From assembly GCA_014763765.1 (NCBI GenBank), contig JACXUT010000009.1, positions 1-37,982 of the forward strand: DNA of 37,982 nucleotides, read 5' to 3'. Position numbers and translations under genes: made by a program. Below, piece after piece: positions 12,381-29,136 of the stretch. Within the stretch, counting starts at the first letter, position 1. Every line of letters starts with the position of its first letter. This DNA is from Micrococcales bacterium (lineage in GTDB: Bacteria; Actinomycetota; Actinomycetes; Actinomycetales; Cellulomonadaceae). The notes below the pieces were generated by a model. It was not told the origin of the DNA. It searched no databases and saw only the letters and a list, made by a program, of their open reading frames with translations.

Positions 12381-12442
12381 GATGAAGGTTCGCTGAAGAG
12401 ACGGCGGCACCGGCATTGGAGCAGGGGCTCGACGCCTACGGT
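12381..12442 (+). promoter_or_regulatory. Operator (site a) and candidate promoter of the riboswitch/NlpC operon
   Basis: GATGAAGGTTCGCTGAAG at 12381-12398 is a direct repeat of TGAAG with an 11-bp period. A -10-like TACGGT at 12437-12442 lies 38 nt after the element, inside cctacggt, a string also found 39 nt after the matching element before the M23 gene. Transcription would start near 12449, giving a leader of about 190 nt that holds the riboswitch. I infer binding by an OmpR-family regulator in an upstream-activator position. Confidence 0.6.
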
Positions 12443-12504
12443 CGAGAAATCCGGACGCTTGTCCGGGAGCCGCGCGGATGCCGAGTCCTGCCGCCGCCCG
12501 GCCC

Positions 12505-12632
12505 GTCGACGTCGCATGGCAGGAGCGGGGGACCCAGGTTCCACGGGCGCTCACGCGCCCTCGGGGTGAAGCGAGCCCAAGAGGCCAGCCGGACGGCTCC
12601 GTCCGAACCCGACAGCTCACCTCGCAGGCGCC
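12505..12632 (+). ncRNA. Cyclic-di-AMP riboswitch (ydaO/yuaA type)
   Basis: The leader of the NlpC/P60 gene carries the conserved blocks of the ydaO/yuaA element in order. These are gcgggggacccaggttcc (from 12525), a hairpin gggcgc-tcac-gcgccc (12545-12560), and cggggtgaagcgagcc (12562-12577). A small stem ggacg-gctc-cgtcc (12591-12604) and the signature ccgaacccgacagctcacc (from 12603), ending ctcgcaggcg (12621-12630), complete it. The AGGAG ribosome site follows directly (12633-12637), with ATG at 12643. This class binds c-di-AMP and in actinobacteria usually turns off cell-wall hydrolase genes (NlpC/P60, Rpf). The control step cannot be decided here; the ribosome site lies just outside the last conserved helix. 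The 5' boundary is approximate. The rest of the 409-bp gap (12234-12642) holds only the upstream operator and promoter. Confidence 0.85.
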
Positions 12633-12642
12633 AGGAGCTCAC

Positions 12643-13437
12643 ATGCCTGCCCACCTGCGTGCGCCGTCGCGCCATCGCAACCCCGGTCGCGCCCGTACAC
12701 CCCTCACCGACGCCGGCACCAGCGCGCGAGTGACTGCTGCAGCCGTTGGCCGGCGCACCGGTGCGGTCGTCGCCACCTCCGGACTCGCGGTCTCCCTTGC
12801 TGCTGTCCCCGCGTCGGCTGCGCCCTCATCGAGCGGCGCTGCTGGAGCCATCGACTTGAGCGTCCTGGATGATGCGAGGGCCCTGGCTACCGCAGCGCCG
12901 TCGGCGGCAGCACCGGCAGCAGCCACCTGGTCGTTCGACGTTCCGGCCGCGACGGTGGTCCTCCCGCCTCCTCCGCCGCCGCCGGTGGTCGAGGAACAGC
13001 CAACCCGAAGCAGTGGCGGAGCCACGTCGCGCAGCACCCAGCGTACGGAGGTCGCCGAGCCCACCGAGCCTGCGCCGATCGGCGCACCGCCTCCCGCGTC
13101 CGCCAACGGGAGCGCCGTCGTCGAGATCGCGTCCGGGCTGGTCGGCGTCCCGTACGTGTACGGCGGCACCACCCCGGCCGGCTTCGACTGCTCGGGGTTC
13201 ACGTCATACGTCTACGCCCAGGTCGGGATCTCGATCCCGCGGACCTCGACTGCGCAGCGGGACGCCGGCACGGTCGTGCCCCGGGACCAGGCGCAGCCGG
13301 GTGACCTGATCTGGTCGCCGGGTCACATCGCGATCTACGCCGGCGGGAACCTCCAGGTCGACGCCCCCGTTCCGGGCAAGTCCGTGCAGATCCGCGAGAT
13401 CTGGCAGTCCGATCCGCTGTTCATCCGGATCGGCTGA
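12643..13437 (+). CDS. Secreted NlpC/P60 peptidoglycan endopeptidase
   Basis: 264 residues; ATG 12643 has AGGAG just upstream, directly after the riboswitch. A signal peptide (residues about 28-55, core AVVATSGLAVSLAAV, cleavage near ASA-AP) is followed by a Pro/Ser/Thr-rich linker with a PPPPPPP run. The catalytic NlpC/P60 domain occupies about residues 160-264. It hydrolyses peptide bonds in wall stem peptides. The catalytic Cys is in FDCSGF (C183) and the His in SPGHIAIY (H228). The third polar residue, usually His in this family, is Asp (QVDAP, D240); an acidic residue is known at this place in mycobacterial RipA. Expression should respond to c-di-AMP and to the upstream direct-repeat operator. 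The cytochrome c assembly gene follows after only 5 bp. Confidence 0.93.
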   Translation: MPAHLRAPSRHRNPGRARTPLTDAGTSARVTAAAVGRRTGAVVATSGLAVSLAAVPASAAPSSSGAAGAIDLSVLDDARALATAAPSAAAPAAATWSFDVPAATVVLPPPPPPPVVEEQPTRSSGGATSRSTQRTEVAEPTEPAPIGAPPPASANGSAVVEIASGLVGVPYVYGGTTPAGFDCSGFTSYVYAQVGISIPRTSTAQRDAGTVVPRDQAQPGDLIWSPGHIAIYAGGNLQVDAPVPGKSVQIREIWQSDPLFIRIG

Positions 13438-13442
13438 CCGGC

Positions 13443-14456
13443 GTGCCCCTCGGAGACCTCAGCACGCTGCTCGTGTGGGGAGCGGTCACGGCGTACACCA
13501 TCGCCCTGGTGGCGTACTCCGCCGCGCTCGCCCGGGTCGCCGACGCCTCGGCCCGCTCGCAGCGCCGTCTCGCAGCGGTCGGGGCCGGAGCCGGGGGCGC
13601 TGACGCGCCTGCCTCGCAGGACCCGGCACCGTCGGTGCCGGGCGGGCGAGCGGCCGGCATCGCGCGGTCAACGGCGACCGTGGCGACCGCGCTGCTGCTG
13701 GCCGGTGTGGCGCTGCGGGGGGTGGCGGCGGGCAGGTGGCCGACCGCGAACATGTACGAGTTCACGATCTTCGGGATCCTCGTGGCCGCGCTGGTGTTCC
13801 TCGGGGTGCGGCGCACGCGCACGGTTCCCTTCGTCGGGGTGCTGGTCACCGGCATCGCCGTGCTGGCGTTGATCGTGGCGCAGAACTCGTTCTACCTGCG
13901 GGCGGACGCGGTGCAGCCGGCGTTGCAGAGCTACTGGCTGGTGATCCACGTGAGCATCGCGGTCGTGGCGACCGGGATCTTCACGGTCGCGTTCGCGACG
14001 TCGGTGCTGCAGGTCCTGCAGGACGCCCGCGAGTCGGGACGGTCGCGGCTGGACCGCCCGTGGCGCGCGGGCGACGAGCTGCGGCGTTCGCTGCGAAGGT
14101 GGCGGATCACCGGGCCGGCGTGGTCGTGGCTGCGCACGGTGCCGACCGCGGTCCGGCTTGAGGCGTTGTCGTTCCGGCTGAACGCGATCGCGTTCGTGCT
14201 GTGGACGCTCACGCTGATCGGCGGCGCGATCTGGGCCGAGCAGGCGTGGGGCCGGTACTGGGGCTGGGACCCCAAGGAGGTCGCGACCTTCGTCGCCTGG
14301 GTGGTGTACGCGGCGTACCTGCACGCGCGGACGACGCGGGGTTGGCAAGGGCGACGCGCAGCCTTCCTGGTGTACGTCGGGTATGCCGTCGTAATCGCGA
14401 ACTTCACGGTGGTGAACCTGTTCATCAACGGCAAGCACTCCTACTCGGGCATCTGA
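13443..14456 (+). CDS. ccsB: Cytochrome c biogenesis protein CcsB/ResC
   Basis: 337 residues from GTG 13443. This is the heme-handling subunit of system II cytochrome c assembly, a multi-pass membrane protein that with CcsA/ResB-type partners moves heme and ligates it to apocytochrome c outside the membrane. About eight membrane segments are visible. The tryptophan-rich heme-binding segment WGRYWGWDPKEVATFVAW lies between the last ones. Conserved His residues occur in YWLVIHVSIA, in YLHARTTRGWQG and in the final GKHSYSGI. A poorly conserved Ala/Pro-rich loop (residues about 40-75) separates the first two segments, as in other actinobacterial homologues. The usual ResB partner is not in this window. 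Placement directly behind the c-di-AMP-controlled hydrolase suggests co-transcription. Confidence 0.93.
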   Translation: MPLGDLSTLLVWGAVTAYTIALVAYSAALARVADASARSQRRLAAVGAGAGGADAPASQDPAPSVPGGRAAGIARSTATVATALLLAGVALRGVAAGRWPTANMYEFTIFGILVAALVFLGVRRTRTVPFVGVLVTGIAVLALIVAQNSFYLRADAVQPALQSYWLVIHVSIAVVATGIFTVAFATSVLQVLQDARESGRSRLDRPWRAGDELRRSLRRWRITGPAWSWLRTVPTAVRLEALSFRLNAIAFVLWTLTLIGGAIWAEQAWGRYWGWDPKEVATFVAWVVYAAYLHARTTRGWQGRRAAFLVYVGYAVVIANFTVVNLFINGKHSYSGI

Positions 14457-14459
14457 CGC

Positions 14460-14705: not shown

Positions 14706-14728
14706 CGGTCGGGGCCGTGCTCCCGGTG

Positions 14729-15150: not shown

Positions 15151-16125
15151 TCAGGAGCCCGTCACCGCGGCGCGGCGCTGGAAGATCAGCACCGCGTTGC
15201 CCTGGTACCGCGGGAGCACGAGCCGGCCCATGGAGAGGTCCCGGACGTAGGTGAACCCGGTCTGGCGCCGGTAGTCGAACCAGTTCCCGCTGCCGGTCTC
15301 GCGAGTGCTGCCGATGACGATGTACGTCTCGACACTGGGGGTGCGGAACACCTCGCGCTCGAACGCGTTGCCGACAGGAGGCCAGGAGCACACCACGACC
15401 TGGGGGCGGCGGGCGCGCAGGGCTGCGACGGCGTCCTGGCGGACGACGTCGTCGGGGTAGTCGATGGACCGTGCCCAGCTGTGGTTGTCGGTCGCGACGA
15501 CGTCGACACCTCGCTGGCGCAGGAACCGGCTGAGCGTCCCGTCGCCGGCGGCGATCTCGAGGGTCTCGCGCGAGCCGATCAGCTTCGCGAGCCTGCGCAC
15601 GAGGGCCGCCGAGTAGAAGCAGTACACCCCGCGCGGGCGGACCAGGGGCATGACGTACCGGCGTTGGCGCGCGAGCGGCCACAGCAGCGTGTAGGCGAGC
15701 GTCGAGACGGGCTTGCGCTCCAGCCCGCGATGGAAGAACAGCCGCTGCAGGATCTGGCCGTTGAGCCGGTCGAACGCGATCTCGGAGCGGTCGACGCCGG
15801 CCTCGGCCGTGAACGCGGCACGTTGGACGGCGTGCAGGAGCATCTGCCGGCGGACCTCGTCGGCGACCAGGTCGTCCTTCCGGCGGCGGCGGTCGGGCGA
15901 TCCGACCCTGGGGGCGCTCAGCTCCGCGACCAGGGCGTGCAGCGCGGTCTCACCGTCCTCCGCGGCGGCGGACAGGCGCGTCTGCACGTCCTCCCACACG
16001 TGGGGGAAGACCCGGAGCAGCTCGTCGAGCGTCGGTTCGGTGTCGAGCCAACGCAGGACGTCGGGACGGCGCCCGTCTCGGCTCACAGGACCTCCAGGCT
16101 CGCCGCGGTTGTGCCCTTGCAGCAT
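15151..16125 (-). CDS. SAM-dependent methyltransferase-like protein
   Basis: 324 residues from ATG 16125. GTG 16086 is an alternative with GGAGG four bases upstream, a short spacing. The C-terminal half shows a class I methyltransferase fold: LEIAAGDGTLSRFLRQ (motif I, SAM-binding glycine region), VDVVATDNHSW (acidic residue after strand 2), a DVVRQDAV region, and VVVCSWPPVGNAFE where catalytic motifs usually sit. The N-terminal half is helical and basic, with RLNGQILQRLFFHRGLERKP. No DNA-methylase NPPY motif is present (SWPP occupies that place), so the substrate is unknown. The direct-repeat element (site c) lies 45 bp upstream, in reverse orientation relative to this gene. Confidence 0.7.
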   Translation of the reverse strand: MLQGHNRGEPGGPVSRDGRRPDVLRWLDTEPTLDELLRVFPHVWEDVQTRLSAAAEDGETALHALVAELSAPRVGSPDRRRRKDDLVADEVRRQMLLHAVQRAAFTAEAGVDRSEIAFDRLNGQILQRLFFHRGLERKPVSTLAYTLLWPLARQRRYVMPLVRPRGVYCFYSAALVRRLAKLIGSRETLEIAAGDGTLSRFLRQRGVDVVATDNHSWARSIDYPDDVVRQDAVAALRARRPQVVVCSWPPVGNAFEREVFRTPSVETYIVIGSTRETGSGNWFDYRRQTGFTYVRDLSMGRLVLPRYQGNAVLIFQRRAAVTGS

Positions 16126-16169: not shown

Positions 16170-16187
16170 GATGAAGGTCTGCTGAAG
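16170..16187 (+). promoter_or_regulatory. Direct-repeat operator, site c
   Basis: GATGAAGGTCTGCTGAAG differs from sites a and b only in the centre and keeps the two TGAAG half-sites 11 bp apart. It fills the gap between the 3' end of ccdA and the 5' end of the methyltransferase-like gene (both minus strand). No convincing -10 box at the expected distance was found for the minus-strand gene, so the function here is less clear than at the other sites. Confidence 0.5.
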
Positions 16188-16203: not shown

Positions 16204-17025
16204 TCACACGACGGGCTGAAAGATCAGGATCAGGCCCTGGAGGCTCTGCGCCCACCGGCCCCACAGGCCGGTGACCAGGGCGATCCCGATCAGCACCAGC
16301 ATGGTTCCTCCCACGACGGAGATGGCGCGGCGTCGACGGCGCACGAGGTCGAGCAGGCGGCTGCTGCGCTGGAGCCCGAGAGCGAGGAGCACGAACGGCA
16401 GGCCCAGCCCGAGGGCGTAGGCGGCGGACAGCACGGCGCCCCGGGCGGGTGACCCGCCGTCGAGGGACAGGGCCATCACGGCGGCGAGCGTGGGGCCGAT
16501 GCACGGGGTCCAGCCGAGCCCAAACGTCACGCCGAGCACGGGGGCGCCCCACAGCGTCGCCGGCGGGCGGCGGTGCACCCGGACCTCGCGCTGCAGGAAG
16601 GGCACGCCGCCGAGGAACGCGACGCCCATGACGATCACGACCACGCCGAGCGCCCGGGTGATCGGGTCCTGCCAGCGCAGCAGCGCCCCGCCGAGCGACC
16701 CCGCGAGGGCACCGAGCGCGACGAACACCAGGGCGAACCCGAGCACGAACAGCGCGACACCGAGAGTGAGCCGGCCGCGCCCGGGGGCAGCCGGGGCCGG
16801 TGTGCGCCCTGCGACCGCGCGTGCCGGCTGCACGGTCTGCGCGGTCAGCCCGCTGAGGAATCCGAGGTAGCCGGGGACGAGCGGCAGGACGCAGGGTGAG
16901 GCGAACGACACCGCGCCGGCGACCAGCGAGACGAGCAGGGCGAGCAGCAGGGGGCCGGAGAACGCGGTGGTCGCGAACGCGGACCCGACGTCGGCTGCGG
17001 CCGCGAGGGTAGCGGGGGCCGTCAC
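16204..17025 (-). CDS. ccdA: CcdA-type transmembrane thiol-disulfide transporter
   Basis: 273 residues. GTG 17025 overlaps the ATPase stop (GTGA); the longer open frame upstream is only the shadow of the ATPase gene. CcdA proteins carry reducing electrons from cytoplasmic thioredoxin across the membrane to exported thioredoxin-like proteins used in cytochrome c assembly. About six membrane segments are visible. The two redox Cys are in the hallmark sites SFASPCVLPLVPGYLGF (first segment) and GLGWTPCIGPTLAA (fourth segment). A basic Pro-rich loop (AGRTPAPAAPGRGR) links two halves, as in actinobacterial forms. Plausible local clients are the TlpA-like lipoprotein and the CcsB pathway. It is the distal gene of the cmtR-ATPase transcript. 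Confidence 0.93.
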   Translation of the reverse strand: MTAPATLAAAADVGSAFATTAFSGPLLLALLVSLVAGAVSFASPCVLPLVPGYLGFLSGLTAQTVQPARAVAGRTPAPAAPGRGRLTLGVALFVLGFALVFVALGALAGSLGGALLRWQDPITRALGVVVIVMGVAFLGGVPFLQREVRVHRRPPATLWGAPVLGVTFGLGWTPCIGPTLAAVMALSLDGGSPARGAVLSAAYALGLGLPFVLLALGLQRSSRLLDLVRRRRRAISVVGGTMLVLIGIALVTGLWGRWAQSLQGLILIFQPVV

Positions 17026-19064
17026 GCGGGCGCCGGGGTGGGTGCCGGTGCGGCGAGTGCGCGGTCGGCGCCGGTGCGCGGTCCCGGGGTGGTGACGTGG
17101 GCGGCTCGGATGCCGTTGAGGATGACCACGACCTCGGCGACCTCGTGCACGAGGACGACGCCTGCCAGGCCCAGCGTGCCGGTCAGGGCCAAGGGGAACA
17201 GCGCGACGATGATGAGCAGCGCGAGGCCGATGTTGCCGGTCATGATGCGTCGCCCGCGTCGGGCGTGGGTGATGGCGCGGGGCAGCAGCCGCAGGTCGTT
17301 GCCGGTGAACGCGACGTCGGCGGACTCGACCGCGGCGGCGGTGCCGGTGGCGCCCATCGCGATGCCGACGTCCGCGGCGGCAAGCGCGGGGGCGTCGTTC
17401 ACGCCGTCGCCGACCATGGCGGTGCCGGGACCCAGTTCGAGGACCGCGGTAGCCTTGTCCTCGGGTCGCTGCTCGGCGCGCACGTTCTGGATGCCTGCGG
17501 CTGCGGCGAGGGCGTGCGCGGTGCGGCTGTTGTCGCCGGTGAGCATGGTGGTCCGCAGTCCGGCGGCGTGCAGCGCGGCGACGGCCTCGGCGGCCTCCGG
17601 GCGCAGCTCGTCGCGGATCCCGATCACGCCGACTGTGCGTGCGTCGGCGCGCACGACGACGGTGGTCATGCCGGCGGTCTCCATGGCGTCCAGGGCACCG
17701 GTGAGGGACCCCGCGTCGAGCCAGCGGGTGGAGCCGACCTCCACGCGCACACCACCGACCGTCCCGGTGATCCCGCGCCCGGGCTCCTCGACGACGTCCT
17801 CGGCCGTCCCTGCGCCGGGAGACGCGGTGAGCAGGGCGCGGGCCAGCGGGTGCGCGCTGCGTGCCTCGACGGCGGCCGCCCAGGCCAGCACCTGCTCGGG
17901 GGTGGTGCCCTCGATGGTCCGGGTGTCCACCACCTCGGGCCGGTTCACGGTCAGGGTGCCGGTCTTGTCCAGAGCGACCGTGCGCAGGGCACCCAGCTGC
18001 TCGAACGCCTCGCCGGACTTGATCGCGACGCCGAACCTGCTCGCCGATCCGATCGCGGAGATCACCGTGACGGGCACGGCGATCGCCAGCGCGCACGGGG
18101 AGGCGGCCACGAGCACGACGAGCGCGCGGTCGATCCAGACCGACGGGTCGCCCAGCAGCGAACCGAGCACAGCAACACCGGCGGCGACCACCAGGACCGC
18201 GGGGACCAGGGGCTTGGCGATGCGGTCAGCCAGCCGCGCCCGCTCGCCCTTGCGGGCGTGCGCCTCCTCGACGAGCCGCACGATGGTCGTGAGCGAGTTG
18301 TCCCGGCCGTCGGCGGTCGCCTCGAGCTCGAGCGCGCCGGTGCCGTTGACCGCGCCGGCCGGGACGGCGTCGCCAGGCCCGACCTCGACGGGGATGGACT
18401 CACCGGTGACTGCCGAGGTGTCCACCGCGCTGCGCCCGGTCACGACCACGGCGTCGGTCGCGACCCGCTCGCCCGGGCGCACCACCAGCACATCGAGCTC
18501 GCGGACGTCCTGGGCAGGCACGACGACCTCGCTGGCCAGGCGGGAGAGGCGGGCGGTCTGCGGCATGAGCGTCAGCAGCGCCCGCAGGCCGTGCTTGGCG
18601 CGGTCCATGGCCCGGTCCTCGAGGGCCTCGGCGATGGAGAAGAGGAACGCGAGTGCCGCGGCCTCGGCGACGTGCCCCAGGACCACGGCGCCGGTAGCCG
18701 CGATGGTCATCAGCAGGCCGACCCCGAGCCGCCGGCGTCGGAGTCGACGCAGGGCACCGGGCACGAACGTCCAGGCCCCGGCGGCCAGCCCGAGCGCGAA
18801 CGCCACGGTGCTGGCCACCTGCCCGGCGCCCGACCAGTCGAGGGCGTATCCGGTGAGCAGCAGCACGCCGGAGGCAGCGGGCAGCCGCAGCGCGGGGTCG
18901 CGCCACCAGGCGACGAACGGGTCCTCGTCCGCGTCGAGGGGTGGGGCGTCGTGGTCGCAGCAGTCGTCCGGCTCGGGGCGCGGGGGCGTGCTGCTCGCGG
19001 GGCGCACGCCGATGGACAGGGTCGGTCGCGGCGCGTCCTCCGGGCCGCAGCACTCCCGGCTCAT
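17022..19064 (-). CDS. P1B-type soft/transition-metal exporting ATPase with SPC motif
   Basis: 680 residues; ATG 19064 overlaps the regulator's stop (ATGA). This is an inner-membrane P-type ATPase that would pump metal out. The N-terminus has no full metal-binding domain but carries Cys/His clusters (MSRECCGP and DDCCDHDAP). Catalytic parts are complete: TGES actuator loop (VTGESIPVEV), DKTGTL phosphorylation site near residue 366, an HPLA nucleotide-site motif (SAHPLARAL), TGDN and GDGVNDAPAL. The membrane metal site reads ASPCALAIAVP near residue 320, SPC instead of the CPC usual in Cd/Zn/Pb or Cu pumps. SPC is typical of the P1B-4 group (Co, Zn, Cd, Fe). The last segments contain HEVAEVVVILNGIR. 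Regulation by the adjacent CmtR-like sensor favours Cd/Pb as inducers. The gene is followed by ccdA with a GTGA overlap. Confidence 0.93.
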   Translation of the reverse strand: MSRECCGPEDAPRPTLSIGVRPASSTPPRPEPDDCCDHDAPPLDADEDPFVAWWRDPALRLPAASGVLLLTGYALDWSGAGQVASTVAFALGLAAGAWTFVPGALRRLRRRRLGVGLLMTIAATGAVVLGHVAEAAALAFLFSIAEALEDRAMDRAKHGLRALLTLMPQTARLSRLASEVVVPAQDVRELDVLVVRPGERVATDAVVVTGRSAVDTSAVTGESIPVEVGPGDAVPAGAVNGTGALELEATADGRDNSLTTIVRLVEEAHARKGERARLADRIAKPLVPAVLVVAAGVAVLGSLLGDPSVWIDRALVVLVAASPCALAIAVPVTVISAIGSASRFGVAIKSGEAFEQLGALRTVALDKTGTLTVNRPEVVDTRTIEGTTPEQVLAWAAAVEARSAHPLARALLTASPGAGTAEDVVEEPGRGITGTVGGVRVEVGSTRWLDAGSLTGALDAMETAGMTTVVVRADARTVGVIGIRDELRPEAAEAVAALHAAGLRTTMLTGDNSRTAHALAAAAGIQNVRAEQRPEDKATAVLELGPGTAMVGDGVNDAPALAAADVGIAMGATGTAAAVESADVAFTGNDLRLLPRAITHARRGRRIMTGNIGLALLIIVALFPLALTGTLGLAGVVLVHEVAEVVVILNGIRAAHVTTPGPRTGADRALAAPAPTPAPA

Positions 19065-19465
19065 ACGCGCACCTCGATCCGGTCGTCGCCGATTACCCGC
19101 GCGGCCGGCCCGGGGTCGCAGTCCGCGCAGCATCCCGGGACGTCGCACGTGTCGTTCGCGCACGGCGTGCCGTCGTCGACGGCGAGGACCACCTCGACGA
19201 GGGCGGTCAGCGCGTGCGCGAGGTGCGCGTCGGCGATCGCGTACCGCGTGCGGCGCCCCTCGGTCTCGGCGAGCACGAGCCCGCAACCCCGGAGGCACGC
19301 GAGGTGGTTCGAGACGTTCGAGCGTGTCATCCCCAGGACGTCCGCGAGCTCGGCGGGGTAGGCCGGGCCGTCGGTGAGAGCGGCCAGGATCCGCGCGCGG
19401 CTGAGGTCGGCCATGGCCCGGCCCAGGCGGGTGAAGACGTCGACGCGCGAGGAACTGGTCAGCAT
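19061..19465 (-). CDS. cmtR: CmtR-like Cd(II)/Pb(II)-sensing repressor (ArsR family)
   Basis: 134 residues from ATG 19465. The winged-helix fold and recognition helix (MTRSNVSNHLACLRGCGLV) closely resemble mycobacterial CmtR. The Cd/Pb ligands of CmtR (C57, C61 and C102) occur here at the same residue numbers: C57 and C61 in ACLRGC, C102 in GTPCAND. Four more Cys follow in the tail (DTCDVPGCCADC), which is longer than the classic protein and could strengthen or widen metal binding. In the absence of metal such repressors block their own promoter; metal releases DNA. The gene heads a transcript with the P1B ATPase and ccdA. Its promoter appears leaderless and overlaps a palindrome. Confidence 0.92.
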   Translation of the reverse strand: MLTSSSRVDVFTRLGRAMADLSRARILAALTDGPAYPAELADVLGMTRSNVSNHLACLRGCGLVLAETEGRRTRYAIADAHLAHALTALVEVVLAVDDGTPCANDTCDVPGCCADCDPGPAARVIGDDRIEVRV

Positions 19466-20974: not shown

Positions 20975-21355
20975 GTGACGATGACATCCCCAGTGGTCGA
21001 TAATGAGAACGACGCCCGTTCCGCGGACGACGCCGCGCTCACGGCCCCGACCGCCGCGCTGTTCCGGGCGCTGGGCGAGCCGGCGCGGCTGACGATGCTG
21101 CGGCACCTGTTCACGGGGGAGCACTCGGTGCGCGAGCTCACCGACCACCTCGGCCTCGCTCAGTCCACTGTGAGCGTGCACCTGGCGTGCTTGCGGGACT
21201 GCGGGCTGGTGACGGTGCGGCAGCGGGGGCGGTCCTCGATCTACGCGATCGCCGACCCCGGCCGGCTGGCGACGCTGGTCGGCGCGGCGGAGGACCTGCT
21301 GCACGGCGGGTCGAGCCCGGACGCGTGCGCGCACCTGACGGGGGGCGAGCGGTGA
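20975..21355 (+). CDS. ArsR-family metal-sensing repressor upstream of CDF exporter
   Basis: 126 residues; GTG 20975 is placed six bases after a TAACAT -10 box (leaderless). Winged-helix fold: ALFRALGEPARLTMLRHL, SVRELTDHLGL, recognition helix QSTVSVHLACLRDCGLV and wing RQRGRSSIYAIA. C72 and C76 (ACLRDC) match the CmtR/CadC-type metal-site pair in the recognition helix, and a third Cys occurs near the C-terminus (C118, PDACAH), the same arrangement as CmtR. It overlaps the CDF gene (GTGA), so it most likely represses that exporter until Cd, Pb or Zn is bound. The N-terminal 20 residues are acidic and variable. Confidence 0.9.
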   Translation: MTMTSPVVDNENDARSADDAALTAPTAALFRALGEPARLTMLRHLFTGEHSVRELTDHLGLAQSTVSVHLACLRDCGLVTVRQRGRSSIYAIADPGRLATLVGAAEDLLHGGSSPDACAHLTGGER

Positions 21356-22281: not shown

Positions 22282-22784
22282 GCCTCCGGACCGCGCCTGC
22301 ACTCCCGCCGGTGGCCGTCGCCACGGCCGCCGGCGCGCTCCAGCTCGCGGTCTCCCGGCGCACGAGGCCCACGCCCGGCTCGCTCGCCGCGGCCGCGCTC
22401 CCCGCCGCCGCGGCGGCCTGCCTGCTCGGCGACGCCCTGGTCCGGTTCCGGCGCGCCCGCACGACCGTCGACCCCACCGCCCCGGCGGCGGCCAGCGTCC
22501 TGGTGGTCTCCGGCGCCAACCGGGTCAGCCGGAACCCCATGTACCTGGGCATGGCCGCCGCGCTGCTCGCGCACGCCGTTGCTTGCCGGTCCGCCGTCGC
22601 GCTGGTACCGGTCGCCGGGTTCGTCGGGGTGCTGACCACCGGGCAGATCGCCGCCGAGGAGATGGCGCTCGACGCGCGGTTCGGCGAGCAGTACGCGCGG
22701 TACCGCGCCGAGGTGCCGCGCTGGGCGGACCTGCGCTCGGTACGAGCGCTCGTCGCGGCTGCCCGCGCGGTGAAGTTCCGATGA
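22278..22784 (+). CDS. Isoprenylcysteine/phospholipid methyltransferase-family membrane protein
   Basis: 168 residues; GTG 22278 overlaps the CDF stop (GTGA). The family is recognised from the signature SGANRVSRNPMYLGMAAALLAHA in the middle and EEMALDARFGEQYARYRAEVPRW near the end, which form the SAM- and lipid-facing site of ICMT/PEMT-like enzymes. Three to four membrane segments are visible. Bacterial members, often found beside metal-resistance genes, have mostly unknown substrates (lipids or isoprenoids). The gene's TGA stop is part of the second half-site of operator site f, so the coding end and the operator overlap. Confidence 0.85.
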   Translation: MSLRTAPALPPVAVATAAGALQLAVSRRTRPTPGSLAAAALPAAAAACLLGDALVRFRRARTTVDPTAPAAASVLVVSGANRVSRNPMYLGMAAALLAHAVACRSAVALVPVAGFVGVLTTGQIAAEEMALDARFGEQYARYRAEVPRWADLRSVRALVAAARAVKFR

Positions 22785-22786
22785 AG
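22769..22786 (+). promoter_or_regulatory. Direct-repeat operator, site f, before the two-component genes
   Basis: GGTGAAGTTCCGATGAAG keeps both TGAAG half-sites at the 11-bp period and sits 61 bp before the response-regulator start, overlapping the preceding stop codon. No -10 box is seen at 38-39 nt; the sequence GACGGT appears 50 nt away, one 11-bp period further, but it overlaps the region expected for ribosome binding. Autoregulation of the two-component system is the natural reading. Confidence 0.5.
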
Positions 22787-22847: not shown

Positions 22848-23549
22848 ATGCCCACTGAGACGGACCGCGTGCGCGTCCTGGTCGTCGAGGACGAGAGCGT
22901 GCTCGCCGCCGTCATTGGCGACTACCTGCGCGCCGACGGGTACGACGTGGCCGTGGTCGGCGACGGGGCCCGCGCGCTGGAGGCGGCCCGGTCGATCGCC
23001 CCGCACGTCGTCGTCCTCGACCTCGGGCTGCCCACGGTCGACGGCATCGAGGTCTGCCGGCAGCTGCGGGAGTTCTCCGACGCCTACGTCGTGATGCTCA
23101 CCGCCCGCGCCGATGAGACCGAGGTGCTGCAGGGGCTGCGCTCAGGGGCGGACGACTACATGACCAAGCCGTTCCGGCCGCGTGAGCTCCTCGCGCGGGT
23201 CCGCACGCTGCTGCGTCGCGCCCGCACCCCCGGGCCGCTCGCCCCACCCACCCGCGAGGTGGGCGCCCTGGTGGTGGACCTGCGCAGCCGCGAGGTGACG
23301 CTGGCGGGGGCCCTGATCGATCTGACGCCGACCGAGTTCGACCTGCTGGCGTGCCTGCTCGACAACGCCGGGACCGCCATGACCCGGCGGGCGCTGATCG
23401 AGGCGCTGCGCGGGGAGAACTGGTTCGGCGACGAGAGCCTGATCGACGTGCACGTGCTGCACCTGCGCCGCAAGCTCGGCGACGACGCCGCCACCCAGCG
23501 GTTCGTGCGGACCGTGCGCGGCATCGGCTACCAGCTGGGCGACGGATGA
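22848..23549 (+). CDS. OmpR-family response regulator
   Basis: 233 residues from ATG 22848. The receiver domain (residues about 8-120) has acidic residues E14-D15, phospho-acceptor D58 in VVVLDLGLPTVDG, T/S in VVMLTAR and Lys in YMTKPFRP. The winged-helix output domain follows (about 135-232): LIDLTPTEFDLLACLLDN, the recognition-helix region ESLIDVHVLHLRRKLGDD, and the C-terminal wing FVRTVRGIGYQLGDG. OmpR-type regulators bind tandem half-sites about 10-11 bp apart. This matches the seven TGAAG repeats in this window, one of which lies just upstream of this gene. It is coupled to the kinase gene by an ATGA overlap. Confidence 0.96.
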   Translation: MPTETDRVRVLVVEDESVLAAVIGDYLRADGYDVAVVGDGARALEAARSIAPHVVVLDLGLPTVDGIEVCRQLREFSDAYVVMLTARADETEVLQGLRSGADDYMTKPFRPRELLARVRTLLRRARTPGPLAPPTREVGALVVDLRSREVTLAGALIDLTPTEFDLLACLLDNAGTAMTRRALIEALRGENWFGDESLIDVHVLHLRRKLGDDAATQRFVRTVRGIGYQLGDG

Positions 23550-24685
23550 GTCGCGCGCCCTGGCGCCGGTGGGGCGTCGCCCTCCGGCTGAGCGTCGCGC
23601 TCTGGGCGGTCATCGTGGTCACCGTCGCGACCGCCGGCGCGGTCGCGTGGGTGATCGGGCCGGGGATCTTCCACGAGAACCTGCTCCAGCACAACGAGGA
23701 CGCGTCCGACGACGCGACCGAGCACGCCGAGGCCGCGTTCGGCACGGCCGGGAGCGTCTCGCTGGCGGCTGCCCTGCTGCTGGCCCTTCTCGTGTCGTCG
23801 GCCCTGAGCACCTGGATCGCCGGGCGGGTGACCCGCTCGCTGCAGCCGATCGTCACCGCGGCCGGGAGCGTGGCCCGTGGGGTGTACGACCGCCGGGTCC
23901 CGGTGCCGGGTCTGGGCGCCGAGTTCGACGACGTCGCGACCGCGATGAACGCGATGTCCGAGCGTCTCGAGCACGTCGACGGCACCCGCCGCCGGCTCCT
24001 GGCGGACCTGGCGCACGAGATGCGCACGCCGCTGGCGACCTTGACCGTGTACGTCGACTCGATCGAGGACGGGCTGCGGGATCCGGACGCGGCGACGCTG
24101 CAGGTGCTGCGCGACCAGGTCGACCGCCTCAGCCGGCTCGCCGAGGACGTCTCGGCGGTCTCGCTGGCCGAGGAGCGACGCCTGCCCCTGCGGCTCGCCG
24201 ACGCCGCACCCGAGGACCTGGTGCGGGCCGCGGCCGCGGCCGCCAACCCCGCCTTCGCCACCAAGGGCGTCTACCTCCAGGTCGACGCAGCGGTCCGGGT
24301 CCCTGCCGTCAGCGTCGACCGTGACCGGATCGGGCAGGTCCTGGCGAACCTGCTCGACAACGCGCTGCGGCACAGCGACCGCGGGGCCGCCGTCGTCGTG
24401 CGCGTGCGCGCCGAGCGCGACGCCGTGGCCATCGCGGTGCACGACACCGGGGACGGCATCGCTGCGGAGCACCTGTCCCACGTGTTCGACCGGTTCTACC
24501 GCGCCGACACCGCCCGGGACCGCGACCACGGCGGGTCAGGGATCGGGCTGACCGTGAGCAAGGCATTCGCCGAGGCCCACGACGGCTCGCTGGACGCCGC
24601 CAGCCCCGGCACCGGGCAGGGCGCGACCTTCACCCTCCGACTCCCGGTCCGACGCAGCCGCAGCGCCGCGGCGAGCCCCAGATGA
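23546..24685 (+). CDS. Sensor histidine kinase
   Basis: 379 residues; ATG 23546 overlaps the regulator stop. Two membrane segments (about 12-36 and 69-90) enclose a sensor loop of only about 30 residues that is rich in His and acid (FHENLLQHNEDASDDATEHAE). This is suitable for a metal or other small cationic ligand, but the signal is unknown. A HAMP-like region is followed by the dimerisation helix with phospho-acceptor H157 (DLAHEMRTPLATL). The ATPase domain has an N box (LLDNALRHS), G1 (HDTGDGI), F box (VFDRFYRAD) and G2 (GGSGIGLTVSKAF). All catalytic elements are intact. The stop codon lies inside operator site b. Confidence 0.96.
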   Translation: MSRAPWRRWGVALRLSVALWAVIVVTVATAGAVAWVIGPGIFHENLLQHNEDASDDATEHAEAAFGTAGSVSLAAALLLALLVSSALSTWIAGRVTRSLQPIVTAAGSVARGVYDRRVPVPGLGAEFDDVATAMNAMSERLEHVDGTRRRLLADLAHEMRTPLATLTVYVDSIEDGLRDPDAATLQVLRDQVDRLSRLAEDVSAVSLAEERRLPLRLADAAPEDLVRAAAAAANPAFATKGVYLQVDAAVRVPAVSVDRDRIGQVLANLLDNALRHSDRGAAVVVRVRAERDAVAIAVHDTGDGIAAEHLSHVFDRFYRADTARDRDHGGSGIGLTVSKAFAEAHDGSLDAASPGTGQGATFTLRLPVRRSRSAAASPR

Positions 24686-24743
24686 AGGAACGCTGAAGGC
24701 GCGCCCGCGCCCCGGCCGCACAGTGGCCGCCCCGACCTACGGT
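24681..24743 (+). promoter_or_regulatory. Operator (site b) and candidate promoter of the M23 operon
   Basis: GATGAAGGAACGCTGAAG (24681-24698) differs from site a at two central bases. TACGGT (24738-24743), within cctacggt, lies 39 nt after it, and transcription would start near 24750, about 30 nt before the M23 start codon. The element overlaps the stop codon of the kinase gene. Confidence 0.6.
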
Positions 24744-24778: not shown

Positions 24779-26125
24779 ATGCGCCCCGCCCTCCGTCCCG
24801 TCCGCGCCTGGAGGCGCCTGATCGCCACGCTGGTCGCCGCCGCCGTGCTGGTCTCGGTCGCCCCGGTCACCGGGTCCGCCGACGACCTGGACGACCGGCG
24901 CCGGGCCGCGCAGGAACGCGCGGACGCCGCGCAGCAGCGCTCCGACGACCTGCAGGCGTCGGTCGAGGGGCTTTCCGCCGAGCTCGCCCAGGCGGTCAGC
25001 GACCTCGCGGCGACTGAGGCCCGGCTCCCGGCCGCGCAGGCCGAGCTGAAGGCCGCGCAGGACGAGCTGGCCGGTGCCGAGCGCCGGGCGGCGCTCGTCC
25101 AGGCCCGGCTCACGGACGCCACCGAGCAGCAGGAGCGCATCACCGCGCAGGTCGCCGAGTCCGCCACCCGCGGCGAGGAGGTGCGGGCCAGCGTCGGGCA
25201 GCTGGCGCGCCAGGCGTACCAGAACGGCGGCGAGGTGTCCCCCCTCGCCGTGGTCCTGGACGCCCAGGACCTGGACGACTTCAACCGCCGCTACCAGGCT
25301 GCCGCCGCCGCTCAACGGGCTCAGTCGGAGATGGTCGACGAGCTGGCGCGGCTCGCCGGGGAAGCCCGCCAGGCCGAGGCCCGGCTCGTCGCGGTCACCG
25401 ACCGGATCGCCGACCTCAAGGTGGAGGCGGACGAGGAGGTCGCCGTCGCGGACCAGGCCCGAGCAGCAGCGGCCACCCGTGAGCAGGAGATCGAGCAGCT
25501 GATCACCGATCAGCGAGCGAGCCAGCAGCGGCTGGCCGGCATGAAGGCGCAGGCCGAGGCCGAGCAGGCGCAGGCGGAGCGTGAACGCGGCGCGCTGGAG
25601 AGCGAGCTCGCGGGGATCATCGCCGAGCAGCGTCGGCAGGCCGAGGCCGCGGCGGCGGCGAACCAGCCCGCGGCGCCCGGTCCCGCAGCCCCTCCTCCGC
25701 CCTCGTCGGGGTCCGGGGCGATCTTCGCCAACCCCACCTCGATCAACCCGATGTACGTCACCTCGAACTACGGCATGCGGCTGCACCCGATCCTGGGTTA
25801 CACCCGCCTGCACGCCGGGATCGACCTGCGCACCTATTGCAACACCCCGCTCTACGCCCCCCGCGACGCGACCGTGCAGTGGGCGCAGTGGCGCAACGGG
25901 TTCGGCAATCAGGTGATGCTCAACTACGGCACCGTGAACGGGCAGCCCATGATGAGCAGCTCCAACCACATGACCCGGTCCGTCGTCTCCGCGGGCCAGC
26001 AGGTCCGCCAGGGCGACCTCATCGGCTACTCCGGCAACACCGGGCTGTCCGGGGCGTGCCACCTGCACTTCGAGGTCTACGTCAACGGCTCCACCGTCGA
26101 CCCGGCACCGCTGCTGGGGAGGTGA
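24779..26125 (+). CDS. Secreted M23/LytM-type peptidase with long coiled coil
   Basis: 448 residues from ATG 24779. A signal peptide (about residues 13-36, ending GSA-DD) leads to a coiled coil of about 250 residues, very rich in Ala, Gln, Glu and Arg, and a Pro-rich hinge. The LytM domain (about residues 325-448) carries SNYGMRLHPILGYTRLHAGIDL with H345 and D349, and CHLHFEVYVNG with H430, the zinc-site residues; a further His sits in SSNHMTRS. All ligands are present, so it is probably an active peptidoglycan endopeptidase, unlike EnvC/NlpD-type activators. The coiled coil resembles division-associated LytM proteins (EnvC, RipA partners). It starts a transcript that continues into the TlpA-like gene by overlap or very close spacing. 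Confidence 0.94.
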   Translation: MRPALRPVRAWRRLIATLVAAAVLVSVAPVTGSADDLDDRRRAAQERADAAQQRSDDLQASVEGLSAELAQAVSDLAATEARLPAAQAELKAAQDELAGAERRAALVQARLTDATEQQERITAQVAESATRGEEVRASVGQLARQAYQNGGEVSPLAVVLDAQDLDDFNRRYQAAAAAQRAQSEMVDELARLAGEARQAEARLVAVTDRIADLKVEADEEVAVADQARAAAATREQEIEQLITDQRASQQRLAGMKAQAEAEQAQAERERGALESELAGIIAEQRRQAEAAAAANQPAAPGPAAPPPPSSGSGAIFANPTSINPMYVTSNYGMRLHPILGYTRLHAGIDLRTYCNTPLYAPRDATVQWAQWRNGFGNQVMLNYGTVNGQPMMSSSNHMTRSVVSAGQQVRQGDLIGYSGNTGLSGACHLHFEVYVNGSTVDPAPLLGR

Positions 26126-26130: not shown

Positions 26131-26718
26131 GTGCGCGGCACATGCCGCGCCGCGGGGCTGATCGCGACCGCGGTGCTGGCCCTCGCCGCCTGCAGCCCGC
26201 CGTCGACGACGGGCGCGACCGTCCCCGACCAGGGGTACGTCTCAGGCGACGGCAGCGTCCAGACGTGGGAGCGCGACGAGCGGGGCGAGCCCGTGGCCGT
26301 CACCGGCACCACCTACCAGGGCGACCAGGTCGACACCGCCGACTGGGCCGGCGACGTCGTCGTGCTCAACACCTGGTACGCCGCCTGCCCGCCGTGCCGC
26401 GCCGAGGCGCCGACCCTCGCGGCGCTCGCTCGAGACCGCGCGGACGACGGAGTGCGGCTGCTGGGGATCAACGTCGAGGACGCCGCCGGCGCGGCACTGG
26501 CGTTCGAGCGCACCTTCGACATCCCGTACCCGTCAATCGACGACTCGACCGGCACCGCGGTAAGCGCCCTGTCAGGGACCGTCCCCCTGCAGGCCGTACC
26601 CACCACCGTCGTCCTCGACCGTCAGGGGCGCGTCGCCGCCCGGATCGTCGGGCTCGCCGAGGAGTCCACCCTGGACGCGGTGGTCGGTGACGTGGTCGAC
26701 GAAGCCGGTGCACCGTGA
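26131..26718 (+). CDS. TlpA/ResA-like lipoprotein thioredoxin
   Basis: 195 residues with GTG 26131, which has GGGGAGG eight bases upstream; GTG 26122, overlapping the M23 stop, is an alternative. A short signal ends in the lipobox LALAAC (Cys 21 with this start), so the protein is a membrane-bound lipoprotein outside the cell. The thioredoxin-like domain has VVLNTWYAACPPCRAEAPTLA (active site CPPC), a GINVEDAAGAALAFERTFDIPYP insert, and the cis-Pro loop AVPTTVVLDRQGRVA. It would act as a reductant in cytochrome c or copper-protein assembly, fed by CcdA. It also needs lipoprotein processing, which fits the lnt gene nearby. CtaG follows after 19 bp. Confidence 0.93.
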   Translation: MRGTCRAAGLIATAVLALAACSPPSTTGATVPDQGYVSGDGSVQTWERDERGEPVAVTGTTYQGDQVDTADWAGDVVVLNTWYAACPPCRAEAPTLAALARDRADDGVRLLGINVEDAAGAALAFERTFDIPYPSIDDSTGTAVSALSGTVPLQAVPTTVVLDRQGRVAARIVGLAEESTLDAVVGDVVDEAGAP

Positions 26719-26737: not shown

Positions 26738-27706
26738 ATGCTGCCCGCCGACTTCTCCGGCCCGGCCCTGATCCCGACCGCGCCCCCGAGCCTGGCGACC
26801 TATCTCGCGCCGTGGATCCAGCCGGTCCCGGTGCTGCCGGTGGTCGCCGTCCTGCTCGGCGCCGCCTACGTGGTGGGCGTCGCCCGGCGTCACAGGCGGG
26901 GCCGGCGGTGGCCCGTCAGCCGGACGCTGGCGTTCCTGGGCGGTTGCGTCGTGCTGCTGGTCGTCACCGGGGCCGGTGTCGAGGGGTACGGCTACGAGAT
27001 GTTCTCCGTGTTCATGTTCCAACAGCTCACGCTCATGATGTTCGTCGCGCCCCTGCTGGTGCTCGGCCGCCCGGGCACCCTGCTGCTGCACACGGCTCCG
27101 CACCGCGGGCCGGGGCGGGTGCTCCTGGTCGGGGCGCGCCGTGCGCTGCGGTCACCGGTCGCGGCCGCAGCCCTGCACCCGGCGGTCACCGTGCCGCTGT
27201 TCCTACTCGCCTTCTACGGCCTGTACCTGACCGACGCCGCCGGCCTGGTCCTGTCCTCGTGGGTCGGCCACACCGCGCTCGAGGTCGCCCTGCTCGTGGC
27301 GGGCGTGCTGTTCGCGGCACCGGTGCTCTCGCGCGACCCGCTGCCCAGACGCCAGGGGCACGCGGGTCGCGCGCTGGACGTCGCGGTCGAGATGCCCCTG
27401 CACGCGTTCTTCGGCGTCGTGCTCATGATGGCGACCACACCCGTCGTCGCCGCGTTCGGGCACCCGCCCGCGGGTTGGGGCGTCGACCTGGTCGGCGACC
27501 AGCAAACCGCCGGAGCCCTGGCCTGGTCCTACGGCGAGCTGCCCACCCTGATCGTGCTGCTGATCGTGCTGTCGCGCTGGCACCGCGAGGAGACGGACAG
27601 CACGGCCCTGCGCGACCGCCGCGCCGACCGGGACGGCGACGCCGAGCTCGACGCCTACAACGCCTACCTGGCGGGGCTCGCCGACCGCGACCGTCGCCCC
27701 ACCTGA
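26738..27706 (+). CDS. ctaG: CtaG-family cytochrome c oxidase assembly / copper membrane protein
   Basis: 322 residues from ATG 26738 (GTG 26735 directly before it is also possible). Seven membrane segments are visible. Family marks are YGYEMFSVFMFQQLTLMMFVAPLLVLGRP, the HPAVTVPLFLLAFYGLYLT segment, the GHTALEVALLVAGVLFAAPVLSRDPLP segment and EMPLHAFFGVVLMMATTP, with His residues in several membrane segments that may bind copper. CtaG proteins of this type (PF09678, caa3 assembly) help deliver copper to cytochrome oxidase or other exported copper enzymes. It lies between the TlpA-like and CopC genes, a common neighbour pattern in Gram-positive copper-handling loci. Confidence 0.9.
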   Translation: MLPADFSGPALIPTAPPSLATYLAPWIQPVPVLPVVAVLLGAAYVVGVARRHRRGRRWPVSRTLAFLGGCVVLLVVTGAGVEGYGYEMFSVFMFQQLTLMMFVAPLLVLGRPGTLLLHTAPHRGPGRVLLVGARRALRSPVAAAALHPAVTVPLFLLAFYGLYLTDAAGLVLSSWVGHTALEVALLVAGVLFAAPVLSRDPLPRRQGHAGRALDVAVEMPLHAFFGVVLMMATTPVVAAFGHPPAGWGVDLVGDQQTAGALAWSYGELPTLIVLLIVLSRWHREETDSTALRDRRADRDGDAELDAYNAYLAGLADRDRRPT

Positions 27707-27778: not shown

Positions 27779-28453
27779 ATGTCCCACGCCCCCACGCCGA
27801 GCCGGCGACGGTCCCTGCTGTCCCGCCTGGTCCTCGTCCCGGTGTTGGCCGCCGCCGCCCTGGCCCTGTCCGTGGTCCCCGCGTCGGCGCACTCCGGGAT
27901 GACTGGGTCGGACCCTTCGGACGGCGCCACCGTCGACGTCGCGCCCGACGCCGTCACGCTGACCTTCAACGAGCCGCCGCAGGCGCTCGGCACTGAGATC
28001 GCGGTCGTCGGGCCTGACGGGACCACCGTTAGCGAGGGGGTCACCACGGTTGCCGACACCACTGTCACCCAGCCGCTCGCTTCGACACGCCCGGCTGGCG
28101 CCTACGTCATCCAGTGGCGGGTGACCTCCGCGGACGGGCACCCCTTGTCCGGTGAGCTCACGTTCACGGCCGCGGCCGAGACCGGGGTGGAAGAGACGGC
28201 TGGCGGGTCGACCCACCCGGAGCCGGAGCCGATCGAGGAGACCACCGCCCCGAGCGCCGAGGACACTGTCGACTCTGCCGCGGCGCCGGACGACCAGCAG
28301 GAGGAGCAGGTCACCTGGCAGTGGGGACCGACGTCGATCGGTGTCCTCATCGCGATCGCCGCAGCAGTCGCCGCCCTCCTCGTCGTCGCACTCCGGCTGC
28401 GCCGGCGGAACCTCGGTGCACCCGAGGGCCACCAGGAGCGGCGCGAGCCGTGA
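27779..28453 (+). CDS. CopC-domain copper-binding membrane protein
   Basis: 224 residues from ATG 27779, preceded by GAGAGG. A signal peptide ends at PASA-HSG, so His 38 becomes the first residue of the mature protein, as in CopC-type domains where the N-terminal His is a Cu(II) ligand. The CopC fold continues with GSDPSDGATVDVAPDAVTL, FNEPPQ and WRVTSADGHPLSGELTF (second copper His, near 123). An acidic Pro/Glu linker and one C-terminal membrane segment (SIGVLIAIAAAVAALLVVAL) anchor it, with a basic tail. It likely holds copper outside the membrane for CtaG or for oxidase assembly, or buffers toxic copper. Confidence 0.93.
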   Translation: MSHAPTPSRRRSLLSRLVLVPVLAAAALALSVVPASAHSGMTGSDPSDGATVDVAPDAVTLTFNEPPQALGTEIAVVGPDGTTVSEGVTTVADTTVTQPLASTRPAGAYVIQWRVTSADGHPLSGELTFTAAAETGVEETAGGSTHPEPEPIEETTAPSAEDTVDSAAAPDDQQEEQVTWQWGPTSIGVLIAIAAAVAALLVVALRLRRRNLGAPEGHQERREP

Positions 28454-28465
28454 CCTCGAACCGGG

Positions 28466-28483
28466 CTTAGCCGGATCTTCACC
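28466..28483 (-). promoter_or_regulatory. Direct-repeat operator, site d, between copC and fliL-like gene
   Basis: On the minus strand the element reads GGTGAAGATCCGGCTAAG, one perfect TGAAG and one degenerate half-site (CTAAG) 11 bp apart. It lies 13 bp after the copC stop and 81 bp before the fliL-like start, in the same relative orientation as site e before lnt. No clear TAnnnT box is present at 31-32 nt. Confidence 0.4.
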
Positions 28484-28563
28484 GAACGGCTCTCACTGAC
28501 AGCCACCGTCGTGACGATCCATTCGCTGCAGAACGCGAGGTGCCGAGCAGCGAGGAGGGGCGG

Positions 28564-29055
28564 ATGCCCGAACAGCGGATCGTCGGGTCCAGCAGCAAGA
28601 TCGGCGGACAACGCCCGTCGTCCACCACGACTGAGCCCGAGTCCACGCCTGCACCGAAGAAGGGAGGCAGGCGTGGGCTGGTGGTCGGCACGGCACTCGT
28701 CGTCGTGGCCGCGGCCGCCTGGTTCCTGCTCCGGCCGGGCGCGGCATCGGAGGCCGCGCCGGCGGAGATCGAGCTTGGCACCGTCCAAGCGGTCGAACCG
28801 ATCAGCATCAACCTTGCCGGCGGCCGATACCTCCGCCTCGGGCTCGGACTGCAGCTGACGGCTGAGGTGGCTGAGGACGTCGACACCGTCAAGGCGCTCG
28901 ACCTAGCGATCGCACTGTTCTCGCAGCGACCCGTCGAGGAGATCAGTACGGCAGAAGGCAGGGACGCACTCAAGCGGGAACTCGCCGCCCAGCTGACCGA
29001 GGTGTACGAGGGCGAGGTTATCGACGTCTACTTCAGCAACTTCGTCTACCAGTGA
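28564..29055 (+). CDS. Orphan FliL-family membrane protein
   Basis: 163 residues; ATG 28564 has GAGGAGGGG upstream. A Pro/Thr/Lys-rich cytoplasmic N-terminus and one membrane segment (LVVGTALVVVAAAAWFLL) are followed by a FliL domain: VEPISINLAGGRYLRLGLGLQLTAE, then KALDLAIALFSQRPVEEIST, GRDALKRELAAQL, and the characteristic end VIDVYFSNFVYQ. FliL normally surrounds the flagellar stator and supports torque; its fold is related to stomatin/SPFH-type ring domains. No other flagellar gene occurs in this window, and the neighbours are copper, disulfide and lipoprotein genes. Its role here is therefore unclear and may be a stator-independent membrane scaffold. Confidence 0.85.
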   Translation: MPEQRIVGSSSKIGGQRPSSTTTEPESTPAPKKGGRRGLVVGTALVVVAAAAWFLLRPGAASEAAPAEIELGTVQAVEPISINLAGGRYLRLGLGLQLTAEVAEDVDTVKALDLAIALFSQRPVEEISTAEGRDALKRELAAQLTEVYEGEVIDVYFSNFVYQ

Positions 29056-29080
29056 CCACACAGGGCCCCCAGTCGCGACT

Positions 29081-29136
29081 CTTCATCGAACCTCAACCGC
29101 CGGCGGCCTCGCCCGAGGGGCACAGACGCTTACGTT
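29081..29136 (+). promoter_or_regulatory. Operator (site e) and candidate promoter of lnt
   Basis: CTTCATCGAACCTCAACC (29081-29098) is the reverse complement of the family element and nearly identical to site g read towards dsbA. TACGTT (29131-29136) lies 32 nt downstream as a -10 box, giving a start near 29143 and a leader of about 87 nt to the lnt start. The 174-bp gap otherwise shows nothing recognisable. Confidence 0.55.

Follow-up and report, generated by a model that had tools for sequence, protein, structure and literature searches.

Seven direct-repeat boxes on a mobile actinomycete island as very probable operators of a CopR-family regulator

Which regulator, if any, reads the seven 18-bp direct repeats scattered over 17 kb of a metal-defence island in a Micrococcales bacterium of the Cellulomonadaceae? 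The window, by which we mean the whole 37,982-bp stretch of DNA analyzed here, is contig C202 of assembly GCA_014763765.1 (4.07 Mb, 373 contigs); its 12.4-31 kb part carries, according to Pfam, metal-efflux, CopC/CtaG, thiol-redox, cytochrome-assembly, peptidoglycan and lipoprotein genes arranged around one OmpR-family two-component system. The original prediction had taken the repeats for a single envelope-stress regulon. Our analysis retains the single regulon and leads away from generic envelope stress: the seven boxes very probably are operators of the local CopR-family regulator, which would run a metal-defence and envelope regulon on the mobile island. All seven 18-mers were found where, and on the strands on which, they had been predicted. 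These putative CopR-type boxes are:

Box a, 12381..12398, plus strand: upstream of the NlpC/P60 and CcsA genes; -10-like TACGGT at 12437-12442 (forward).
Box c, 16170..16187, plus strand: reverse-oriented, upstream of the methyltransferase-like gene 15151-16086(-); -10-like GATGCT at 16126-16121(-).
Box g, 20907..20924, plus strand: flanked by divergent dsbA/VKOR (-) and arsR/CDF (+); -10-like TAACAT at 20963-20968(+) and TAGCGT at 20875-20870(-).
Box f, 22769..22786, plus strand: about 62 bp 5′ of the response-regulator gene, overlapping the stop codon of the open reading frame (ORF) before it; tentative -10-like GACGGT at 22837-22842.
Box b, 24681..24698, plus strand: over the kinase stop codon, 5′ of the M23 peptidase gene; forward -10-like TACGGT at 24738-24743.
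Box d, 28466..28483, minus strand: the weakest, reverse-oriented, 5′ of the FliL-domain gene; GACGAT at 28513-28518, at unusual spacing.
Box e, 29081..29098, minus strand: reverse-oriented, 5′ of lnt; -10-like TACGTT at 29131-29136.

Allowing up to three mismatches to the consensus first proposed, the window holds eight matches against 0.18 expected in 37,982 bp (boxes a and f, no mismatch; c, one; g, b and e, two; d, three). The eighth, at 23840-23857(-) within the kinase gene, is not in the top 20 when the window is scored with the relatives' matrix described below. As predicted, all seven boxes are intergenic or lie over a stop codon (f over the stop at 22784, b over that at 24685). TGAAG-like half-sites 11 bp apart, claimed for every copy, are indeed present in all seven, although only a, c, f and b have exact TGAAG-N6-TGAAG pairs, one half-site being TTGAG in g and e and CTAAG in d. 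The further claim that no such pairs occur inside genes has to be limited to good matches, because imperfect pairs (one or two mismatches in the ten half-site bases) sit at seven other places, four of them intragenic (4885, 23840, 27398 and 36560). The reported spacings to TAnnnT boxes were correct, and the orthologous islands examined keep them within 1 bp; measured from the 16-bp core, box a has 38, b 39, g 38 rightwards and 33 leftwards, and e 34, while the 31 and 32 given for leftward g and for e are distances from the 18-bp element.

The half-site and its 11-bp period are shared with the CopR box of Corynebacterium glutamicum, TGAAGATTTnnTGAAGATTT, for which PMC3140484 gives electrophoretic mobility shift and mutation data: mutations in the repeats abolish CopR binding, while those in the linker or flanks do not. 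CopR targets in that species respond to copper, according to PMC3140484 and PMC3353115. A matrix seeded with the C. glutamicum box was derived from the DNA upstream of regulators 50-72% identical to that of the window (57 regions, one of them from the own genome, upstream of a paralogue on contig C282), 49 of which held a box. When both strands of the window were scanned (~76,000 positions), ranks 1 to 7 were exactly the seven sites, with scores of 27.4, 23.4, 23.4, 22.3, 19.5, 15.7 and 10.4 bits, the next position reaching 8.8; the reversed-sequence control gave one score of 16.1, then 4.3.

The C. glutamicum box itself was present with at most two mismatches in 98 of 242 genomes whose genus was inferred to be Corynebacterium. 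Nine of the ten loci returned carry an OmpR-type regulator, 46-47% identical to that of the window, whose aligned part starts 80-98 bp downstream of the box; no OmpR-type regulator stands beside the box of the tenth, L163, a two-mismatch match. The exact corynebacterial box had no match in 394 genomes drawn from the class. In a set of 98 genomes, the own genome included, 39 contained such a regulator at E <=1e-65 and 44 the box at one mismatch or fewer. Box and regulator co-occur within the genus (60 genomes, own included), where the box is found in 28/31 regulator-positive versus 3/29 regulator-negative genomes (Fisher 2.6e-10), and outside it, where the respective figures are 6/8 and 7/30. 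A same-strand box with no more than one mismatch lies 55-114 bp upstream of 36 of 63 regulator genes, and 109 of the 129 boxes in regulator-positive genomes are within 30 kb of such a regulator.

The two genes of the local two-component system are:

22848..23549, plus strand: CopR-like response regulator (Pfam Response_reg and Trans_reg_C; assignment from the tree).
23546..24685, plus strand: CopS-like sensor histidine kinase (Pfam HAMP, HisKA and HATPase_c; sensor loop GPGIFHENLLQH...TEHAEAAF).

Identity alone proved uninformative, because two other regulators of the same genome are 46 and 50% identical to the window regulator, and a tree of 82 rows was therefore built. Seven of 35 other own-genome regulators were sampled for it, and its corynebacterial rows are ten CopR-box neighbours, among which C. 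glutamicum CopR was not identifiable by name. A 48-row clade (support 100/100) unites the window regulator and its relatives from the same genus with the C282 paralogue, nine plasmid regulators and the ten corynebacterial ones, and leaves out the seven other own-genome regulators. A multicopper oxidase gene is annotated in each stretch read around the nine plasmid regulators. The recognition-helix region of the aligned clade members is close to GDExx(V/I)DVH(V/I)xx(L/V)RRKL, the Cryobacterium plasmid protein deviating most. Box f, ~62 bp 5′ of the regulator gene, is an own-gene box of the kind found in C. glutamicum-type CopRS, and its position makes autoregulation likely. Half-site, spacing, regulator clade and the gene neighborhoods of relatives thus point to the operator of a copper-type (CopRS-family) regulator. 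The direct repeat supports the OmpR-family dimer geometry first suggested, and, since a box precedes its own gene and most of the relatives' regulator genes, the local response regulator is the likely binder, as had also been proposed.

The sensor loop of C. glutamicum CopS reads LFHDHM...FHAEQAY in PMC3353115, and most relatives of the window kinase have FHxH(M/L)...HxExAF. The loop of the window kinase, FHENLLQH...TEHAEAAF, keeps FH and HAExAF as in CopS, but not the second His and the Met of FHxHM. All six window-type kinase rows have FH(E/D)NLLQH, followed by TEHAEAAF in five and TEHAEIAF in one.

Related islands, with DNA pieces ~67-97% identical, were found in five other genomes of the genus, one of which has two copies. 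Box b is AGATGAAGGAACGCTGAAG in 5/5 aligned copies and box e CTTCATCGAACCTCAACC in 4/4, with no aligned counterpart of e in G016 or G048; box a has counterparts in L144, L147 and L149, and box d shows further base changes in G048. Across eleven chosen comparisons with three more diverged islands (G027, G016 and G048; register set by the best core match), the 16-bp core keeps 169/176 bases versus 555/880 in the 40-bp flanks. The boxes at orthologous promoters hold their place while the flanks drift. Predicted ORFs take up 85% of the sequence in 35 relatives' loci, and of the 98 boxes there that score above 20 bits, 90 are outside them. ORFs and start codons, in these loci as in the window, came from a codon-usage finder of our own making.

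Targets in the relatives' loci were counted when a predicted start lay within 350 nt of a box, and were labeled by best BLAST hits to ~66 reference proteins picked from the window and the annotated plasmids. Boxes precede the regulator itself and genes for DUF305, SHOCT-domain, F510_1955-type and DUF3105 proteins, copper ATPase, multicopper oxidase, CsoR, Lgt and NlpC/P60, along with many unlabelled ones. Envelope targets hence recur beyond the window. One unlabelled family of ~223-228 amino acids (63-84% identical; L181, L198, L199, L201, L203, L204 and L209) starts 91-95 nt from a box, on its CTTCA side, in all seven loci. It appears to be a membrane protein, has a Met/His-rich C-terminus in the L181 copy, and is a candidate for an unstudied copper-regulon member.

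The spacing of boxes to -10 elements was analyzed on 127 boxes, giving non-redundant sets of 92 on the CTTCA side and 105 on the TGAAG side. The CTTCA side shows a preferred AnnnT, often GANNNTGG, whose A is 34 or 35 nt away from the core in 63/92 cases versus 3.3 expected. On the TGAAG side, where the baseline is 2.5, the leading AnnnT offsets are 49 (16 cases), 39 (9), 27 (7) and 50 (7). The p-value of the AnnnT test, 1.3e-68, is post hoc, because the relaxed test was chosen after the base frequencies had been inspected; a test restricted to TAnnnT was weak, its best offsets across 130 boxes reaching 4 for one side and 3+2 for the other. The window boxes fit this spacing rule in part: on the TGAAG side the offsets are 39 for a and g, 40 for b and 51 for f, the latter two each one off a peak, and on the CTTCA side 34 for g, 35 for e and 46, one turn more, for c. 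It thus seems that promoters to the left and to the right can be served by one asymmetric box, in agreement with the single C. glutamicum site that serves two divergent operons according to PMC3140484.

A genome-wide host regulon was considered and rejected. With up to two mismatches to a relaxed consensus the genome has 14 matches, six in the window and eight outside, versus three in a backwards control; a second pattern at three mismatches or fewer gave 11, namely six in the window, one before the C282 regulator and four elsewhere, against a control of three. Apart from the C282 site, the outside matches of the two patterns, seven and four, come close to the control, and the excess outside the window is small. 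One of the four, a three-mismatch box (G000:C117:4828-4845(-)), abuts a third response-regulator gene, C117:4165-4827.

The sequence itself shows what the sites are, that they are conserved, in which clade the regulator falls, that box and regulator co-occur and how the promoters are spaced; from this we infer binding, activation and a copper stimulus as follows. An extracytoplasmic metal signal, most likely copper, would activate the CopS-like kinase (23546-24685), which would phosphorylate the CopR-like regulator (22848-23549). A dimer of the latter would bind the two TGAAG-like half-sites, 11 bp or about one helical turn apart, occupy seven promoter regions of the surrounding mobile island, its own included, and activate transcription from -10 elements whose phase to the box is fixed: mainly 34-35 nt away towards the CTTCA side, and ~27, 39 or 49-50 nt away towards the TGAAG side. 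Among the products would be metal pumps (P-type ATPase, CDF), proteins that probably deal with copper (CopC, CtaG) and enzymes for upkeep of the envelope (thiol enzymes, NlpC/P60 and M23 peptidases, Lnt). The remaining genes of the island and its backbone are listed below, with targets as predicted; assignments are by Pfam unless noted.

12478..13437, plus strand: NlpC/P60 peptidase, target of box a; start codon uncertain.
13443..14456, plus strand: cytochrome c assembly protein (CcsA-type).
15151..16086, minus strand: methyltransferase-like protein, under the Pfam cut-off.
16204..17025, minus strand: CcdA/DsbD-type membrane thiol transporter.
17022..19064, minus strand: heavy-metal P-type ATPase, above the Cd-family and below the Cu-family cut-off.
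19061..19465, minus strand: ArsR-family regulator.
19522..20157, minus strand: VKOR-family protein.
20154..20861, minus strand: DsbA-like thioredoxin-fold protein, target of box g (left).
20993..21355, plus strand: ArsR-family regulator, target of box g (right).
21352..22281, plus strand: CDF cation efflux transporter.
22311..22784, plus strand: PEMT-like membrane methyltransferase, slightly below the Pfam cut-off.
24779..26125, plus strand: M23 peptidase, target of box b.
26131..26718, plus strand: TlpA-like redoxin.
26738..27706, plus strand: CtaG-family protein.
27779..28453, plus strand: CopC-domain protein.
28564..29055, plus strand: FliL-domain membrane protein, target of box d.
29230..30861, plus strand: apolipoprotein N-acyltransferase Lnt, target of box e.
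31698..37091, plus strand: MobF/TrwC relaxase with helicase and DnaG-primase-like domains (mobile backbone).

The relaxase ORF (31698-37091; 1797 amino acids) joins MobF, helicase and DnaG-primase/Toprim-like domains in one frame. On the same mobile backbone, 8737-9882 is a 381-residue ORF with a sub-threshold C-terminal glutaredoxin match. Elsewhere in the window, 4118-8095 encodes a secreted-looking protein of ~1325 amino acids with no Pfam match, the C-terminal end of which we take to be a LAKTG-type sorting signal. At the right end (37201-37982) another ArsR and heavy-metal P-type ATPase pair begins, short parts of which are 70-73% DNA-identical to the stretches of relatives' islands that match arsR 20993 and ATPase 17022-19064.

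Several observations weigh against operators of a local, copper-responsive CopR. No box was found in 8 of the 57 upstream regions used for the matrix, 27 of the 63 regulators have no same-strand box (<=1 mismatch) within 250 bp, and in 10 of 59 relatives that lack the regulator the box is matched with one mismatch. Box d is weak, scoring 10.4 bits against 8.8 for the next non-site and 16.1 once in reversed sequence, and its AnnnT offset of 32 is off the peak. Outside the window the own genome exceeds its control, 8 versus 3, one of the eight being a single-mismatch match on C312. Window-type regulators stand on a long stem (0.86) within the CopR-like clade, and the window kinase has FHEN where most relatives have FHxH; with these two features the stimulus may differ from copper. 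The island ATPase misses the Cu-family cut-off (358/397 bits) and passes that of the Cd family, and the genome has no Cu-oxidase (PF07732) match, while a multicopper oxidase is annotated in all nine plasmid stretches. The adjacent multicopper oxidase and copper P-type ATPase of C. glutamicum-type CopRS are thus not seen here; CopC and CtaG domains are present. The operator family is well supported, but loop, stem, oxidase and ATPase make the stimulus less certain.

Among other regulators, the paralogue on C282 (59% identical to the window regulator and second of 37 matches) could also bind the boxes. It might serve them wholly or partly, the two systems cross-regulating shared operators: its recognition-helix region is similar, its own box, GATCAAGGTTCGGTGAAG at C282:35488-35505(-), lies ~70 bp upstream of this best paralogue, and five other genus genomes with a window-type regulator carry the other type too. 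We nevertheless consider this unlikely, as the 38 kb of C282 around the paralogue hold one strong box versus seven in the window, one of which precedes the window's own regulator, and as TCAAG, which promoters of the other type's own genes usually have as first half-site (24/29), occurs in 0/7 window sites. Also on C282 (L107 2424-4718), the frame of the paralogous CopS-like kinase continues stop-free into a CcdA-like part as one 765-residue ORF, either a real fusion or an assembly indel. Generic envelope stress, the scheme originally put forward and here taken as CpxR-, BaeR- or MtrA-like, draws on the cell-wall, lipoprotein and thiol enzymes among the targets and on MtrA giving the regulator's best NCBIfam score; it is improbable, given that the cut-offs of MtrA (217.8/300 bits), BaeR (186/380) and CpxR (133.7/341) are all missed and that the regulator's clade and its operator belong to copper systems. 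Much of the cargo being envelope-directed, "envelope" fairly describes the targets, though probably not the stimulus.

The PhoP boxes that had been offered as an alternative fare worse still. PHO boxes have GTTCA-type half-sites with the same 11-bp direct-repeat period, but the window half-sites are TGAAG, TTGAG and CTAAG, and the CopR-like matrix ranks all seven first, leaving this reading a negligible chance. Operator sequence, clade and model cut-offs, with no scan by a PHO matrix, were the grounds for rejecting both it and generic envelope stress. A break of island homology at box a raised the question whether the repeats might instead be sites of recombination or of a mobile element: similarity to the 96% identical island of G057 ends 4 bp left of it (window 12377-12381), and G037:C230 has, where box a would be, a second c-type box together with a methyltransferase remnant, so that two island breakpoints lie at or near boxes. 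The fixed -10 spacing and the conservation at orthologous promoter regions make this highly improbable. With CopR-type operators as the preferred reading, a bolder and rather doubtful extension is that the window-type pair is a neofunctionalised CopRS that senses another metal or envelope thiol damage, with a divergent regulator and a kinase in which FHxH became FHxN and a new His arose four residues on. It would run a self-contained, horizontally moving, seven-promoter regulon for envelope repair under metal attack in the same cell as a standard CopRS-like copy, on nearly the same operator, half-site differences insulating the two. Insulation between regulators of near-identical operators is directly testable here, as sensor, regulator, operators and cargo share a relaxase-bearing contig and the paralogous pair is elsewhere in the genome.

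If CopR-type control holds, what is known of a copper regulator from a single site in a single species would become an operator code across actinomycetes that travels with resistance islands, the spacing from box to -10 would be a precise promoter rule, and unannotated box-adjacent genes would be testable copper- or envelope-defence candidates. Among the titles and abstract beginnings searched there was none on this TGAAG box in actinobacteria outside Corynebacterium. As far as those searches go, the expanded regulon (seven sites on a relaxase-bearing contig), the promoter rule and the divergent sensor with its altered histidine motif appear to be new.

Among known systems, the proteobacterial heavy-metal regulators of TIGR01387 (cztR/silR/copR) are likewise OmpR-family regulators of metal operons, but the window regulator misses their cut-off (154.9/279.2 bits). 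Their operators differ from the TGAAG box. CopRS of C. glutamicum (cg3285-cg3284) is, by PMC3140484 and PMC3353115, alike in its TGAAG half-sites 11 bp apart, in a box tens of bases 5′ of copR (box f in the window), in the short sensor loop FH...HAExA(F/Y) and in one box that may serve divergent operons; its regulator is of the OmpR type, and corynebacterial CopR-box neighbours fall in the clade of the window regulator. It differs in the one functional site that is reported for it versus seven in 17 kb, in the second His and Met of FHDHM that the window loop lacks, and in that the window genome has no Cu-oxidase match and the window targets are largely envelope enzymes. The copper-resistance regions of plasmids p110066 of Cellulomonas sp. 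C5510, pNAPH of Rhodococcus pyridinivorans and pP27867_1 of Cryobacterium arcticum also combine a CopR-like regulator and upstream box (weak in pP27867_1, 14.2 bits) with P-type ATPases. p110066 further shares CcdA, redoxin, M23-type and C40 peptidases, Lgt and Lnt, and pP27867_1 M23 peptidases and Lgt. Multicopper oxidase and DUF305, not seen in the window, are annotated in all three, while the window is set apart from them by VKOR/DsbA, CDF and CopC/CtaG.

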